Source: Bacteroidota bacterium (GTDB lineage Bacteria > Bacteroidota > Bacteroidia > Chitinophagales > Chitinophagaceae). Taken from it: DNA of 64,000 nt. Shown here piece after piece: positions 57,599-64,000 of the stretch. The notes beneath the pieces are model-generated. The model was given only the letters and a program-made list of their open reading frames with translations, was not told the DNA's origin and ran no database searches. The position numbers and the translations under genes were made by a program. How positions within the stretch are numbered: position 1 is the first letter of the stretch; every line of letters starts with the position of its first letter. The stretch spans positions 62,001-126,000 of the forward strand of contig CANGDH010000001.1 of the NCBI GenBank assembly GCA_947452555.1, written 5' to 3'.

Positions 57599-57667
57599 GG
57601 AAAATATTATTAGTTGTATAAATAATTGAATATCTAGAGCCAATTTAGTCAAATTATTCCTTTTTAC

Positions 57668-57698
57668 TTGGGTATTTTACAAAAGGGGTGTAAATTTG
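57668..57698 (+). promoter_or_regulatory. Promoter of the histidine operon
   Basis: TTG at 57668-57670 and TAAATTTG at 57691-57698 are spaced by 20 bases, a full match to the Bacteroidota -33/-7 promoter. Predicted transcription start is about 57702-57704, which coincides with the ATG of the his leader peptide at 57703. Confidence 0.8.
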
Positions 57699-57702
57699 TC
57701 TC

Positions 57703-57753
57703 ATGACATTAAACAAACATATCCATCACCATCATTTATTATCCAAGGGGTAA
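57703..57753 (+). CDS. hisL: Histidine operon leader peptide
   Basis: An ATG at 57703 opens 16 codons ending with TAA at 57751-57753, encoding MTLNKHIHHHHLLSKG. Five of the sixteen are His, four of them consecutive and a fifth one codon before. A run of codons for the operon's end product is the classical sensor for attenuation by ribosome stalling. The predicted transcription start coincides with the ATG, so the leader mRNA appears leaderless. The stop overlaps the antiterminator strand (GTAAGC, 57750-57755), so a ribosome at the stop blocks it. No homologous search was possible. Confidence 0.85.
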   Translation: MTLNKHIHHHHLLSKG

Positions 57754-57787
57754 GCTGAGGTGTAGGTATGTATTACTATATTCAACC

Positions 57788-57816
57788 AAAGGGCTTACTA
57801 AACAGTAAGCCCTTTT
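57788..57816 (+). terminator. Histidine operon attenuator (terminator with competing antiterminator)
   Basis: AAAGGGCTTACT (57788-57799) pairs perfectly with AGTAAGCCCTTT (57804-57815) around loop AAAC, with four T's at 57813-57816. The left-arm segment GCTTAC (57793-57798) can instead pair with GTAAGC at 57750-57755, over the leader stop codon. Stalling at the upstream His codons frees GTAAGC and prevents termination; full translation covers it and allows termination. Confidence 0.85.
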
Positions 57817-57835
57817 AATTTACAATAACAAGAAC

Positions 57836-58690
57836 ATGCGTTTAAAATTAGCGATTCAAAAATCAGGAAGATTACATGACGATTCAATGCGTTTGTTGAA
57901 GGAATGTGGTATAGACATAGCAAATGGGGTAAACAAATTGAAAGCAGAAGCTACCAATTTTCCCATTGAACTTTTCTTTTTAAGAGATGACGATATTCCG
58001 CAGTATGTGGAAGACGGTGTTGCAGATATCGGTTTTGTAGGAGAGAATGTGGTGTACGAGAAAGCAAAAAAAGTAGACGTTGCCTATGCACTTGGTTTTG
58101 GTAAATGCAGATTAAGTTTTGCAGTAAGAAAAAACGAAGAATTTACAGGGGCTTCCTTCTTGTCAAACAAAAAAATTGCAACAACTTACCCCGTTTTAGT
58201 GCAAAATTATTTAGACGTCAATAAAATTAGTGCAGAGATACATGAGATTAGTGGAAGTGTAGAGATCGCTCCAGGAATTGGCTTGGCAGATGTAGTTTGT
58301 GATTTAGTAAGCAGCGGATCTACTTTATTTATGAATGGTTTAAAGGAAGCAGAAACTATTTTAGAATCTCAAGCGGTTCTAATTAAGCATAAAAATTTTA
58401 GTGCAGATGCAAATGCAATTTTAGAAAGGTTAATGTTCAGGATGGAATCTGTGAAGAAAGCGAAAAAGAATAAATACGTTTTATTAAATGCGCCTAATGA
58501 GAAAATAGAAAAAATTATTTCTTTATTGCCAGGTATGAAAAGCCCAACTGTGCTTGCATTGGCTACCCCAGGTTGGAGTAGTGTACATAGTGTAATTGCA
58601 GAAAGTGATTTCTGGGAAATCATTGAGCAATTAAAAGCGGCTGGCGCAGAAGGCATTTTAGTAATACCAATAGAAAAAATGATTTTATAA
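57836..58690 (+). CDS. hisG: ATP phosphoribosyltransferase, long form
   Basis: HisG catalyses the first step of histidine synthesis and is the usual point of feedback control. The 284-residue protein is the long form with a catalytic domain (MRLKLAIQKSGRLHDDSMRL, GVADIGFVGENVVYEKAKKV, VCDLVSSGSTLFMNGLKEAE) and a C-terminal ACT-like domain (KNKYVLLNAPNEKIEKIISL), so no HisZ subunit is needed. It starts 20 bases after the attenuator and ends 1 base before hisD. Expression should be controlled by the His-codon leader upstream. Confidence 0.96.
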   Translation: MRLKLAIQKSGRLHDDSMRLLKECGIDIANGVNKLKAEATNFPIELFFLRDDDIPQYVEDGVADIGFVGENVVYEKAKKVDVAYALGFGKCRLSFAVRKNEEFTGASFLSNKKIATTYPVLVQNYLDVNKISAEIHEISGSVEIAPGIGLADVVCDLVSSGSTLFMNGLKEAETILESQAVLIKHKNFSADANAILERLMFRMESVKKAKKNKYVLLNAPNEKIEKIISLLPGMKSPTVLALATPGWSSVHSVIAESDFWEIIEQLKAAGAEGILVIPIEKMIL

Positions 58691-58691
58691 G

Positions 58692-59984
58692 ATGAATTTG
58701 TTGATAACACCAGACAGAAAGGATTGGCCCAGTATTTTAAAGCGCCCAAGTATAGATGCGTCTAGTTTATTGCCAATAGTACAGGGAGTAATTGATCAAG
58801 TAAAGTCAAAAGGAGATGTTGCTTTGATTGAATATACCATGCAGTTTGATCAAGTTCAATTAACTGCAATTCAATTGGACAATTCTGTGATTGAAACTGC
58901 GGCTTCTAGACTGTCTAGTAATTTAAAAAATGCAATACAGTCTGCTAAAGTAAATATCGAAAAATTCCATGCTACCCAAGTTCAAAAAGTAGAAAAAGTC
59001 GAAACGATGCCTGGGGTATGGTGTTGGAGAAAATCAGTAGGGATTGAAAAAGTGGGCATCTATATTCCAGGCGGAACTGCTCGTTTATTTTCAACGGTAT
59101 TAATGTTAGGGGTGCCGGCAGTTTTAGCTGGATGTAAGGAAATAATATTGTGTACACCTCCTAATAAAGAAGGTCAAATAGACCCAGCCATCTTATATGC
59201 TGCTCATTTAGTGGGCATTACAAAAATATATGCTGTGGGTGGAGTACAAGCTATTGCCGCAATGGCATTTGGCACAGAGACTATTCCGCAAGTATATAAA
59301 ATATTTGGACCGGGTAATCAATATGTCACTGCTGCAAAACAATTGGTACAGCAATATGGAATTGCAATTGACATGCCTGCAGGTCCAAGTGAAGTTTGTG
59401 TTTGGGCAGATGATACAGCGAATGCGAGTTTTGTTGCAGCAGACCTGTTGTCACAGGCAGAACATGGAGCAGATAGTCAAGTACTATTAGTAGCGTCTAA
59501 TGAAAAAATAGTAGCAGAGATTGAGCTTGCTATAAAAGAACAAGTTGAGATATTACCAAGAAAAGAGTTTGCATTAAAAGCATTATTAAATTCTAAGGCA
59601 ATTGTTATAGAAAACAAAGAAGATGCCATTCAATTAATAAATGAATATGCACCAGAGCATTTAATATTAGCAATACAAAATGCTGAAAAAATGGCTGATA
59701 AAGTTATAAATGCAGGGTCCGTATTTATAGGTAATTATTCACCAGAGTCGGTTGGGGATTATGCAAGTGGAACAAATCACACGCTTCCAACAAACGGAAA
59801 TGCGAAAGCTTATAGTGGGGTAAGTATGGATAGCTTTGTAAAAAAAATCACCTTTCAGCAGCTTACAGAAAGAGGGTTAACTAATATAGCACAGACGGTA
59901 ACAGAAATGTCTAGTGCGGAAGGATTGCAAGCACATGGAAATGCAGTTACAATTCGTGTTAATCACATTAAAGCCAAAATTTAA
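58692..59984 (+). CDS. hisD: Histidinol dehydrogenase
   Basis: HisD performs the last two oxidations of the pathway with NAD and zinc. The 430-residue protein shows VEKVETMPGVWCWRKSVGIE, KVGIYIPGGTARLFSTVLML, TKIYAVGGVQAIAAMAFGTE, the signature GPSEVCVWADDTANASFVAA followed by DLLSQAEHGADSQ (metal-binding Gln/His) and NHTLPTNGNAKAYSGVSMDS. Length is normal. It is 1 base after hisG and 10 bases before hisC. The end of its frame overlaps an extended hisC frame but not the hisC start chosen here. Confidence 0.97.
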   Translation: MNLLITPDRKDWPSILKRPSIDASSLLPIVQGVIDQVKSKGDVALIEYTMQFDQVQLTAIQLDNSVIETAASRLSSNLKNAIQSAKVNIEKFHATQVQKVEKVETMPGVWCWRKSVGIEKVGIYIPGGTARLFSTVLMLGVPAVLAGCKEIILCTPPNKEGQIDPAILYAAHLVGITKIYAVGGVQAIAAMAFGTETIPQVYKIFGPGNQYVTAAKQLVQQYGIAIDMPAGPSEVCVWADDTANASFVAADLLSQAEHGADSQVLLVASNEKIVAEIELAIKEQVEILPRKEFALKALLNSKAIVIENKEDAIQLINEYAPEHLILAIQNAEKMADKVINAGSVFIGNYSPESVGDYASGTNHTLPTNGNAKAYSGVSMDSFVKKITFQQLTERGLTNIAQTVTEMSSAEGLQAHGNAVTIRVNHIKAKI

Positions 59985-59994
59985 TATCAATTTT

Positions 59995-61059
59995 ATGCCA
60001 TTTGATATACAGAAACTTGTAAGGCCAAATATTGCCAAATTAAAACCCTATTCTTCTGCAAAAGATGAATTTACGGGTGTGGCTGAAATATTACTTGACG
60101 CCAATGAAAATTCTTTGGGTTCTCCGTTAACACAATGGTATAATCGATATCCGGACCCCTATCAAAAAGAGATCAAGAAAAAATTGTCAGTGATTAAGAG
60201 TGTCCCAGTCAATCAAATTTTTTTGGGAAATGGAAGTGATGAAATTATAGATTTGTTATACAGGGCTTTTTGTGAACCAGGGAAGGATAATATTATTATT
60301 TGCCCACCTACATACCCTATGTATGAAGTGAGTGCAAATATTAATGATGTAGCTATTCAATCTGCGCCATTATTGACAGATTTTCAATTAAATGTGGCAC
60401 ATATAGAGCAGTTGGTGAATGTGAATACAAAAATAATTTGGATATGTTCCCCTAATAATCCAACAGGCAATTCTTTAGATAGAATCGACATTGAAGTGAT
60501 ATTAAATCATTTTGATGGCCTAGTGGTAGTGGATGAAGCATATATTAATTTCTCTAAACAAAAATCGTTTGTACAGTCGTTGGTAGATTATCCAAATTTA
60601 GTGGTGTTACAAACTTTAAGTAAGGCCTGGGGTTTAGCAGGTTTAAGAGTGGGAATGTGTTTTGCAAACGAGGAAGTGATTGATTATTTGAATAAAGTGA
60701 AAGCGCCCTATAATATTAGTACAGTGAATCAATCCTTGGTATTGAAAGCATTAGAGGAAGTTGGTCAAGTGAATGATATGATTAAGGAATTAGTGGCAAT
60801 GAGAATTGCCTTGGCGGAAGTATTGCAGAATATGCCAATGGTGGAGCAGGTTTATCCTTCAGATGCTAATTTTTTACTTGTTAAAATTCCAAATGCAACT
60901 AGTTTATATCAGTATTTATTGACAAAGGGTATAGTAGTAAGGAATAGATCTAGTTTATTGAATTGTGCTGATACCATCAGAATAACGGTAGGTACAGAAG
61001 CAGAGAATACGCAGTTGGTTGACGCCATGGCAGATTGGATTGATATGAATTTCGAATAA
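59995..61059 (+). CDS. hisC: Histidinol-phosphate aminotransferase
   Basis: HisC is a fold-type I PLP enzyme converting imidazole acetol phosphate to histidinol phosphate. The 354-residue protein has VAEILLDANENSLGSPLTQW, ICSPNNPTGNSLDRIDIEVI, VVVDEAYINFSKQ, and the PLP-lysine segment LQTLSKAWGLAGLRVGMCFA. I take the ATG at 59995 (MPFDIQKLVRPN); the frame extends upstream into hisD but would overlap it by 70 bases. It is the third gene of the operon. Confidence 0.97.
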   Translation: MPFDIQKLVRPNIAKLKPYSSAKDEFTGVAEILLDANENSLGSPLTQWYNRYPDPYQKEIKKKLSVIKSVPVNQIFLGNGSDEIIDLLYRAFCEPGKDNIIICPPTYPMYEVSANINDVAIQSAPLLTDFQLNVAHIEQLVNVNTKIIWICSPNNPTGNSLDRIDIEVILNHFDGLVVVDEAYINFSKQKSFVQSLVDYPNLVVLQTLSKAWGLAGLRVGMCFANEEVIDYLNKVKAPYNISTVNQSLVLKALEEVGQVNDMIKELVAMRIALAEVLQNMPMVEQVYPSDANFLLVKIPNATSLYQYLLTKGIVVRNRSSLLNCADTIRITVGTEAENTQLVDAMADWIDMNFE

Positions 61060-61109: not shown

Positions 61110-62357
61110 ATGAAAAATTTCAAGATTGTATTTTCGAGCATTTTATTATTAGTGTCTAGTTTGGCACAGTCTCAAGATAATGCTGGATTAAGAATGCCTG
61201 CAGGGTTTACTGCAAAATTATTTGCTTCTAATATTGGTGCAGCAAGACATATAGCGATTACCAAAAATGGAGTAGTATTTGCAAAATTGAATGCACCTAA
61301 CAAAGAAGGGAAATCAATTATTAGATTAGAAGACAACAATCAAGATGGCATTGCGGAAAAAATTTCTGGTTTTGGTAACTACGGCGGAACTGGAATTTAT
61401 GTGCGTGGTAATAGTTTATATGCAAGTTCTGATGAAGCTATTTTCCAATATCAATTAGATGTGAAAGATGAAGTTTTAAATGCAACAAGTCCTAAGACTA
61501 TTGTGAAGGGTTTATTAGATAGAAGACAACATTCTTCAAAGTCTATAACGCTTGATCCTCAAGGAAATATTTATGTGAACATTGGAGCGTATTCAAATGC
61601 ATGTCAAGAAAAAGATAGAACTCCTGGATCTAAGGGTATGAGACCTTGTCCAATTTTGGATTCAGCTGGTGGTATTTGGAAATTTGACGGTCAAAAAGAA
61701 AACCAAGTCTATGGAGATGGGTTGCGTTATGCAACTGGGTTAAGAAATGTAATTGGCTTAGATTGGAATACCAATACGAATAGTTTATTTGTCACACAAC
61801 ATGGGCGTGATCAATTAAATTCTTTCTTCCCTAATTTATATACGGACAGTCAAAATGCGGAATTACCTGCTGAAACAATGTATGAAGTAAAGCAAGGGGA
61901 TGATTGTGGATGGCCTTATGTATACTTCGATCCTTATCAAAAGAAAAAAATACTAAACCCTGAATTTGGGGGTAATGGTAAAATAGAAAGCGCACCAGAT
62001 GCATTGAGTCCGTTAGTGGCTTTCCCTGCACATATGGCACCAATGGCTTTATTGTTTTATCAAGGAAGTCAATTCCCTGCAAAATATAAGGAAGGAGCAT
62101 TTATCGCATTTCATGGCTCATGGAATAGAGCACCATTGCCTCAGGAAGGATATTTCGTAGCATTTATTCCTTTTAAAAATGGCAAACCAGCAGGTGATTG
62201 GGAAATTTTTGCAAATGGTTTTGCTGGTTCTGATATCGTTGCTAATCCAAGACAAGCAAGAGCAAGACCTTGTGGTTTGGCAGAAGGTCCAGATGGATCT
62301 TTGTACGTGAGTGATGACAATCACGGTAATGTTTTCAAAATCAGTTTTAATAAGTAA
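61110..62357 (+). CDS. PQQ-dependent sugar dehydrogenase-like protein
   Basis: The 415-residue protein has a signal peptide (about residues 1-21) and the soluble glucose/sorbosone dehydrogenase propeller pattern: LRMPAGFTAKLFASNIGAAR, DPQGNIYVNIGAYSNACQEK, ATGLRNVIGLDWNTNTNSLF, VTQHGRDQLNSFFPN, GDDCGWPYVYFDPYQKKKIL, AFHGSWNRAPLPQEGYFVAF and GSLYVSDDNHGNVFKISFN. Such proteins oxidise sugars in the periplasm with PQQ, passing electrons to a cytochrome. It is followed after 10 bases by a small cytochrome c gene. Both sit inside the his operon between hisC and hisB, and no his-like function is evident. Confidence 0.88.
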   Translation: MKNFKIVFSSILLLVSSLAQSQDNAGLRMPAGFTAKLFASNIGAARHIAITKNGVVFAKLNAPNKEGKSIIRLEDNNQDGIAEKISGFGNYGGTGIYVRGNSLYASSDEAIFQYQLDVKDEVLNATSPKTIVKGLLDRRQHSSKSITLDPQGNIYVNIGAYSNACQEKDRTPGSKGMRPCPILDSAGGIWKFDGQKENQVYGDGLRYATGLRNVIGLDWNTNTNSLFVTQHGRDQLNSFFPNLYTDSQNAELPAETMYEVKQGDDCGWPYVYFDPYQKKKILNPEFGGNGKIESAPDALSPLVAFPAHMAPMALLFYQGSQFPAKYKEGAFIAFHGSWNRAPLPQEGYFVAFIPFKNGKPAGDWEIFANGFAGSDIVANPRQARARPCGLAEGPDGSLYVSDDNHGNVFKISFNK

Positions 62358-62367
62358 GTTTTAAATA

Positions 62368-62763
62368 ATGAAGATAGTATCAGTTGTAATAGGATGTTTT
62401 TTATTAATGATTTCGCTGCAAGGCAATAGTCAAAATAAAGTGAACGGGAAAAAAATATACGAAACAAGGTGCTTGGTATGTCATCAAGCCGATGGTGGTG
62501 GCGTTCCTAATATGAACGCGCCATTGGACGGTTCTTCTAATTTAGTGGGGAATGATATCGCTCGATTAGTAAAAATTATTCGTTATGGATATAATGAACG
62601 AATTGCACTTGATGGATATTATTATACCAATGCTATGACAGCTAATCCAGATTTTAAAGATGCTGATATTGCAGATGTATTAAGTTATGTAAGAAATAGC
62701 TGGAGTAATAAAGCTGCTAATATTACAGTATTGCAGGTTCAACAAGCAAAAAGAAAAAAATAA
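62368..62763 (+). CDS. Small c-type cytochrome
   Basis: The 131-residue protein has a signal peptide (about 1-21) and one haem-attachment motif, TRCLVCHQADGGGVPN (Cys35, Cys38, His39), within a single cytochrome c domain ending in a coiled tail rich in Gln and Lys. A distal Met may be that in NAMTANPDF. It lies 10 bases after the PQQ-type dehydrogenase, the usual arrangement for a periplasmic electron acceptor of that enzyme. It is 17 bases before hisB. Confidence 0.9.
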   Translation: MKIVSVVIGCFLLMISLQGNSQNKVNGKKIYETRCLVCHQADGGGVPNMNAPLDGSSNLVGNDIARLVKIIRYGYNERIALDGYYYTNAMTANPDFKDADIADVLSYVRNSWSNKAANITVLQVQQAKRKK

Positions 62764-63944: not shown

Positions 63945-63976
63945 TTTGGTTAAAAATATTGAATACCTTAATTTTG
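63945..63976 (+). promoter_or_regulatory. Promoter of the gene at the right edge
   Basis: TTTG at 63945-63948 and TAATTTTG at 63969-63976 are spaced by 20 bases, a full -33/-7 match. The predicted transcription start is about 3 bases before the ATG at 63984. Confidence 0.7.
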
Positions 63977-63983
63977 TATTCGA

Positions 63984-64000
63984 ATGAAAACAATAAACAA
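63984..64000 (+). CDS. Start of a gene truncated by the window edge
   Basis: ATG at 63984 begins MKTIN and runs off the right edge after 17 bases. Support comes only from the well-formed promoter directly before it. Nothing can be said of the product. Confidence 0.4.

Follow-up and report, generated by a model that had tools for sequence, protein, structure and literature searches.

Attenuation of his operons by translating ribosomes is classical, and the locus described here raises the question of whether the DNA in front of hisG in a Chitinophagaceae genome controls histidine synthesis in this way, using a ribosome that would load directly onto the 5′ end of the transcript. The locus lies in a window of 64,000 nt, the whole stretch of DNA that was analysed, and the element and the three genes that follow it are on the + strand. 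hisG (ATP phosphoribosyltransferase, 57836–58690, TIGR00070 and TIGR03455 above cut-off) is the first gene after the leader, followed by hisD (58692–59984, TIGR00069 above cut-off) and hisC (59989–61059, TIGR01141 above cut-off). Between hisC and a bifunctional hisB, positions 61110–62763 hold two genes outside known histidine synthesis; one matches the heme-binding family TIGR02604 below cut-off, and the other is a small protein with a CxxCH motif.

The element sits between a divergent ORF and hisG. Re-reading of the sequence bore out the initial annotation of a TTG-N20-TAAATTTG promoter and a 16-codon ORF with five His codons in front of hisG-hisD-hisC. The −33 element TTG (57668–57670) is separated by exactly 20 nt from a −7 box, TAAATTTG (57691–57698, consensus TAnnTTTG), and four further nucleotides (TCTC) precede the ATG at 57703. 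The leader ORF, MTLNKHIHHHHLLSKG, spans codons 57703–57750 and ends with a TAA stop at 57751–57753. Downstream, a left arm, AAAGGGCTTACT (segment 3, 57788–57799), and a right arm, AGTAAGCCCTTT (segment 4, 57804–57815, followed by TAATTT), pair without mismatch over 12 bp and enclose a loop of 4 nt. The stem had been described correctly; the T-run ascribed to it had not, as the tail is merely TTTTAATTT and is weak. A competing strand over the leader stop codon is present as proposed: GGTAAGCT (segment 2, 57749–57756) can pair with GGCTTACT within segment 3, and a constrained fold places between the two a central hairpin (57759–57787) that is compatible with this antiterminator. The parts follow one another as they do in classical histidine attenuators. 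A further pairing, on which the initial annotation was silent, involves the end of the leader ORF: TTATCC (segment 1, 57739–57744) has the potential to pair with GGGTAA (57748–57753) and so hide the antiterminator strand. This hairpin is weakly supported, and would complete the classical four-segment layout.

General-purpose searches gave little at this locus. A generic terminator scan of 57600–57840 called none, in our reading because the first T's were counted into the stem, and a sigma-70 scan of the same interval, which does not cover promoters of this kind, returned three weak sites, none of them at 57668–57698. The Rfam His_leader model (RF00514) was unmatched in the window both at the gathering score and among five matches with E up to 5, as were the T-box and known riboswitch models in the window stretch. 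At the gathering score nothing was found on this leader or on eight other leader-bearing stretches. Elsewhere in the window, 25836–25942 matches the small SRP RNA (RF04183, 84.9 bits). Dinucleotide shuffling of the 237-nt intergenic stretch, repeated 20,000 times, gave an ATG-started mini-ORF with at least five His codons on 9 occasions, and the five-His ORF is unique among the 861 ATG-started mini-ORFs of 8–30 codons on both strands of the window. The main evidence against chance is, on the sequences compared, its conservation in relatives.

We put at a little over three in four the probability that the promoter-like sequence, His-rich ORF and terminator-like hairpin at 57668–57821 control hisG-hisD-hisC through ribosome stalling on a predicted leaderless leader. 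The direct basis for this reading consists of the sequence parts, their conservation, their fixed spacings and their pairing potential. RNA polymerase would begin the transcript with the A of the ATG, and the 5′ end of this RNA would take up a ribosome directly. With ample His-tRNA the ribosome would reach the stop codon and cover segment 2, leaving segments 3 and 4 to form the terminator. When His-tRNA is short, the ribosome would stall on the His codons; a stall on the last of them, 16 nt before segment 2, would leave segment 2 free if the footprint is about 13 nt, as we assume. Free segment 2 would then capture segment 3 ahead of the synthesis of segment 4, and the operon would open. With no ribosome at all, segment 2 may be masked by the small hairpin at the leader's end and termination thereby favoured; of all the steps in the scheme, this is the weakest.

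A HisG protein scan of genome contigs identified 129 relatives, from which the best 80, ranked by similarity, were kept; the closest are labelled Chitinophagaceae or Bacteroidetes MAGs. One locus (L046) has no upstream DNA and was left out. An ATG-started, His-rich leader precedes hisG in all 79 testable loci among the best 80 of 129. Conservation of the His run in close relatives had been named as one of the points on which the attenuator would stand or fall, and the run is kept. The 80 leaders, including that of the window, comprise 76 distinct sequences, which form the 76 rows of the alignment used below. In these, His occupies codon 11 without exception (76 of 76), codon 9 in 74, codon 6 in 73 and codon 10 in only 53. 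Of the 56 leaders that have codon 8, 54 carry His there. At codons 7, 10, 12 and 15 the amino acid differs from leader to leader, unlike at the constant His positions. Across the 80 leaders, His is written 310 times as CAT and 39 times as CAC.

Conservation extends to the family. A sample of 60 genomes, one per genus, contained hisG in 46, that is, in 45 besides the window's own genome, and 44 of these loci were usable, one (L310) having been dropped for short upstream DNA. A script recognised an ATG-started His leader in 41 of the 44. In two of the others (L284 and L295) no ATG leader was recognised; the third (L291) lacks an ATG leader, and a GTG-started one was seen by eye. The segment 2 and segment 3 motifs of the window are both present in 29 of the 41 genus-level leaders.

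We next consider where the transcript begins. TAnnTTTG occupies −12 to −5 at mapped promoters of F. psychrophilum, according to the available text of PMC9723704. Applied to the box in the window, this rule places +1 at 57703, the A of the leader ATG, and the earlier claim that the predicted start coincides with the start codon thus holds provided that the box occupies the same positions here. From this spacing the window leader is predicted to be leaderless. The absence of a 5′ UTR had also been called unusual. This is sound in that leaderless mRNAs are few in F. psychrophilum (5.5%, in the same available text), as are 5′ UTRs shorter than 10 nt in B. thetaiotaomicron (about 3.7%, from the portion of PMC7366714 available); the 4-nt spacing, for its part, holds neither throughout the family nor in other families.

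Among the 80 leaders, the distance from box to ATG is 4 nt in 59 (54 with exact boxes, 5 with one mismatch) and 6–10 nt in 20. The script assigned 15 nt to the remaining one (L060), in which a second ATG lies, by eye, 7 nt from a box. Within the closest 54 leaders (the window and L002–L055 by rank of HisG identity, minus L046; the ranking uses no tree) the spacing is 4 nt in every case, and the four intervening bases are themselves variable (0.89, 0.29, 0.20 and 0.94 bits). In 76 of 80 leaders a TTG precedes the box by 19–21 nt. The closest relatives also keep the promoter spacer (57671–57690, GGTATTTTAYAAAAGGG-like) and a T-tract before the TTG beyond what a spacer would need, possibly as an operator or a feature that sets promoter strength.

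As an in-genome control we used 111 ordinary genes, taking the first ATG of each ORF as the start and excluding loci picked by pattern. A box was found within 60 nt of the start in 19 of these genes, at 4 nt in two, at 6 nt in one and at 15–38 nt in sixteen. Genome-wide, TANNTTTGNNNNATG occurs 95 times compared with 52 for the reversed pattern, so that the layout also occurs at some ordinary genes. In the genus sample, where three loci are ambiguous, spacings of 4–10 nt, equivalent to a predicted 5′ UTR of 0–6 nt, were counted in 30 of 41 leaders (28 of 41 when the last in-frame ATG is used), and longer spacings in the rest (14–27 nt in 11 of 41 by script, 14–38 nt in 13 of 41 with the last in-frame ATG). 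A blanket statement that all family leaders are leaderless was accordingly rejected, as 11–13 of the 41 genera have spacings of at least 14 nt. The constant 4-nt spacing is, by sequence comparison, a property of close relatives, and a predicted UTR of 0–6 nt is common in the family; neither is universal.

These same counts bear on an alternative that accepts the attenuator and denies its leaderlessness: the transcript would start several bases up or down, or from a different promoter, and have a short 5′ UTR as in other Bacteroidota genes. The −12 to −5 rule derives from another family, the genera with spacings of at least 14 nt would fit such an arrangement, and so would the long spacings of 17–35 nt in nine of ten leaders from a second family of the same class (f5, described below). 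Against it, the spacing is 4 nt in 54 of 54 closest leaders across bases that vary, and the −33 TTG keeps its distance from the box in 76 of 80. We regard this alternative as unlikely, though it keeps a real share of the probability, and continue with the leaderless attenuator as the preferred reading.

The geometry of the proposed switch is as constrained as its promoter. Counted from the first base of the last His codon, segment 2 begins after 16 nt in 78 of 80 leaders. The other two are L042, with one more His, and L081, whose stop codon is displaced upstream and whose distance is 15 nt, which suggests that the distance kept may be to the His codon rather than to the stop codon. In the alignment of 76 rows, the two arms of the terminator pair in 97.5% of cells, as compared with 94.6% in shuffles. 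Cells changed on both sides number 35, compared with 10 in shuffles, and none of 500 shuffles reached 35; both-side changes fall in 4 of the 12 pairs, a number that 52 of 500 shuffles reached. Segments 2 and 3 pair in 98.5% of cells, compared with 20–54% when one strand is slid along the other. Covariation between them was not found within the family alignment because both strands are nearly invariant, so the pairing is conserved but not independently proven. Segments 1 and 2 pair in 82.2% of cells, equal to the shuffles, and in 19–63% when slid. Support is good for the terminator, comes through conserved pairing and spacing for the antiterminator, and is weak for the 1:2 hairpin.

Near-invariance of segments 2 and 3 is also what a binding protein could cause, and a T-box, riboswitch or RNA-binding protein might in principle choose between terminator and antiterminator while the His-rich ORF is incidental. 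No Rfam family reached threshold in the stretch, His is kept codon by codon at a fixed distance from segment 2, and trpE and pheA are preceded at the corresponding position by leaders for Trp and Phe (see below); these observations make control by a protein or ligand improbable.

Folding of the leaders was examined with the ribosome represented as a mask reaching, by assumption, about 13 nt downstream of the first base of the A-site codon. For the nascent RNA with a ribosome stalled on His, the antiterminator formed in 80 of 80 leaders; with a ribosome at the stop codon it formed in 0 of 80, which follows by construction. Without a ribosome, equilibrium folding of the nascent RNA gave the antiterminator in 70 of 80, the window being among the exceptions, and segment 2 was paired upstream in only 9 of 80. 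At the earlier point before segment 3 is made, the antiterminator core was paired with upstream RNA in 77 of 80, in the window mainly through TTATCC with GGGTAA. Since equilibrium without a ribosome favours the antiterminator, ribosome-free termination rests on kinetic order. For the full-length leader, the lowest-energy fold was the terminator in every ribosome state (in the window −24.1 kcal/mol, compared with −14.6 kcal/mol with the antiterminator forced), and antitermination must therefore be kinetic, chosen during transcription.

We also considered a model of three segments, with read-through as the default for untranslated RNA. That segment 1 can pair with segment 2 while segment 3 has yet to be transcribed leans against it, and we incline to the four-segment arrangement, although the nascent equilibrium folds are compatible with either.

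That the terminator wins every full-length fold, with its weak T-tail, would also suit a hairpin that terminates constitutively or stabilises the 5′ end and lets a fixed fraction of transcripts through without sensing histidine. A plain terminator has no need of a competing strand, yet 78 of 80 leaders have one at a fixed 16 nt from a conserved His codon, and we give this explanation a slim chance. Action of the small peptide in trans, as for peTrpL, which the leaderless trpL of Sinorhizobium meliloti yields (PMC7298713, in the text available), is highly improbable, given that codons 7, 10, 12 and 15 vary and the His positions do not, and such a role, if present, would be compatible with attenuation.

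The same genome offers two parallels to the His leader, which remains best read as a ribosome-sensed attenuator. At the very end of the window (63969–64000, + strand) are the promoter box (63969–63976) and first codons (ATG at 63984) of a Trp leader, MKTINNFWWWHTNSVGVL, that precedes trpE; the window end cuts it, and the remainder was read in a separate stretch (L205). Its box spacing is 7 nt, and the leader is followed by a hairpin, AACCCCGAC...GTCGGGGTT, and a T-run. In front of pheA, outside the window (L206 / L092), a Phe/Tyr-rich leader of 28 codons, MMKANSNWFYFFFYFYFKQSSRVVFVKA, begins 4 nt from its box and is followed by a hairpin with nine T; both hairpins are GC-rich. GCCGGG inside the pheA leader ORF can pair with the left arm of its hairpin. 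Among the best 30 loci per gene in the family, similar leaders were found in 29 for trpE and 28 for pheA, and a box with at most one mismatch lies 2–12 nt upstream of the leader ATG in 25 of 29 and 25 of 28, respectively. By way of comparison, a search allowing one mismatch placed a box 2–14 nt from 937 (10%) of 9039 arbitrary ATGs in these trpE and pheA loci. In the leu-ilv-thr cluster of the same genome no leader ORF was recognised, though there is a hairpin near a promoter box: at leuA (L204, about C9:19337–19400), a GGGCTAAAAGCCC hairpin lies some 10 nt behind a TAAATTTG box.

Beyond the family, a phylum sample of 118 genomes contained hisG in 103, and 90 of the 102 other loci were examined (30 as loci, 60 as stretches), the other 12 falling outside the examined set; families are denoted here by f-numbers. 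In f5, which belongs to the same class, all ten loci have a His leader and a terminator, the box spacing is 17–35 nt in nine and 7 nt in one, and segments 2 and 3 differ in sequence from those of the window. In f14, ATG leaders were found in 10 of 11, all 10 with a terminator. The groups with long spacings show that leaders of this kind do not need to be leaderless. In other families and operons the segments differ in sequence and can still pair, with a shuffle test that was partly significant. Among leaders with a terminator, segment pairing reached p≤0.05 for his in 6 of 10 (f5), 6 of 10 (f14), 4 of 5 (f1 and f2), 1 of 3 (f3, f4 and f8), 1 of 2 (f22 and f27) and 0 of 1 (f21), and in 20 of 28 for pheA and 11 of 26 for trpE. 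No leader was recognised in f10, f11, f12, f13, f15, f16, f17, f18, f23, f24, f26, f28 or f29, and f9 and f19 gave doubtful leaders only; the hisG start is approximate for many of these families.

A different arrangement was seen in a distant family, f21 (L113–L115, L119, L126, L127, L131, L135–L138, L140, L160 and L170). All 14 loci have a His-rich leader of leaderless appearance, GTG-started in 12 by alignment, and the box spacing is 4 or 5 nt in 12. A terminator-like hairpin was present in only 1 of 14, and the last 72 nt before hisG are G-poor, with 10–18 C and 4–7 G. Our guess is that these leaders attenuate in a Rho-dependent manner.

A wider reading, which we hold tentatively and think somewhat less probable than its failure, is that amino-acid attenuation is widespread in Bacteroidota and that the sensing ORF has moved onto the transcription start more than once. 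As parts of this joint proposal, the his, trp and phe operons of Chitinophagaceae would be read by ribosomes that load on a bare or nearly bare 5′-terminal AUG, and f21 would have become leaderless independently, without a terminator and perhaps using Rho. If this is true, ribosome loading in the his, trp and phe operons of Chitinophagaceae would be tied to the first moments of transcription.

How does the element compare with known systems? Enteric hisL (RF00514), as described in the available text of PMC9413887 and PMC3896937, is alike in having a short His-clustered ORF before hisG, a terminator, an antiterminator and a stalling ribosome as sensor. The window leader is unlike it in having no Rfam match, in being predicted leaderless and in an antiterminator strand that crosses the leader stop. 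Candidate His attenuators of Firmicutes (PMC9413887, same available text) likewise combine three to five consecutive His codons with a terminator and an antiterminator, in another phylum; the word Bacteroidetes is absent from the main text of that paper, as far as the available version goes. Closer at hand, the available text of PMC9723704 points to attenuation by leader peptides and describes a structured element preceding hisG, pheA and other genes in Flavobacteriaceae. The initial remark that amino-acid attenuators are not widely described in the phylum therefore needs qualification, as the phylum is not blank. Our comparison with that hisG element is by its description in the available text, without its leader sequence or a segment model; set beside it, the sampled f5 His leaders, of the same class as the window, have spacings of 17–35 nt in 9 of 10 and other segment 2 and 3 sequences.

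A start codon at the very 5′ end has precedents elsewhere. The leader RNA of S. meliloti trpL begins directly with the ATG of its ORF of 14 codons (PMC7298713, in the text available). A 5′-terminal ATG is also predicted for the window leader, and the two differ in that trpL is alphaproteobacterial and senses tryptophan rather than histidine, the window leader having a Bacteroidota-type promoter. The Corynebacterium glutamicum ilvBNC leader is treated as leaderless in the available text of PMC11857589, and leaderless transcripts are described as common in Actinobacteria, at 20% on average (PMC3896937, available text). Actinobacterial leaders resemble the proposed one in that attenuation of an operon depends on the sensing of an amino acid by a short, leaderless ORF; they differ in phylum and in the amino acids. 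Canestrari (2020) reportedly described such polycysteine leaderless sORFs in mycobacteria.

No publication on leaderless amino-acid leaders in Bacteroidota was found in a search that left most subscription journals and all bioRxiv preprints outside. As far as the literature searched is concerned, three features appear to be new relative to these systems: the conserved, predicted zero-UTR start in Bacteroidota, the fixed distance from His codon to an antiterminator that contains the stop codon, and the putative parallel Trp and Phe leaders. The proposed scheme also makes predictions on the regulation of his, trp and phe genes in many environmental genomes. Across the genera of one family the same sensor stands at predicted 5′ UTRs of 0 nt, 1–6 nt and at least 10 nt, and this conserved leader set, from a phylum with few mapped leaderless mRNAs, would allow the purpose of leaderless initiation to be tested.
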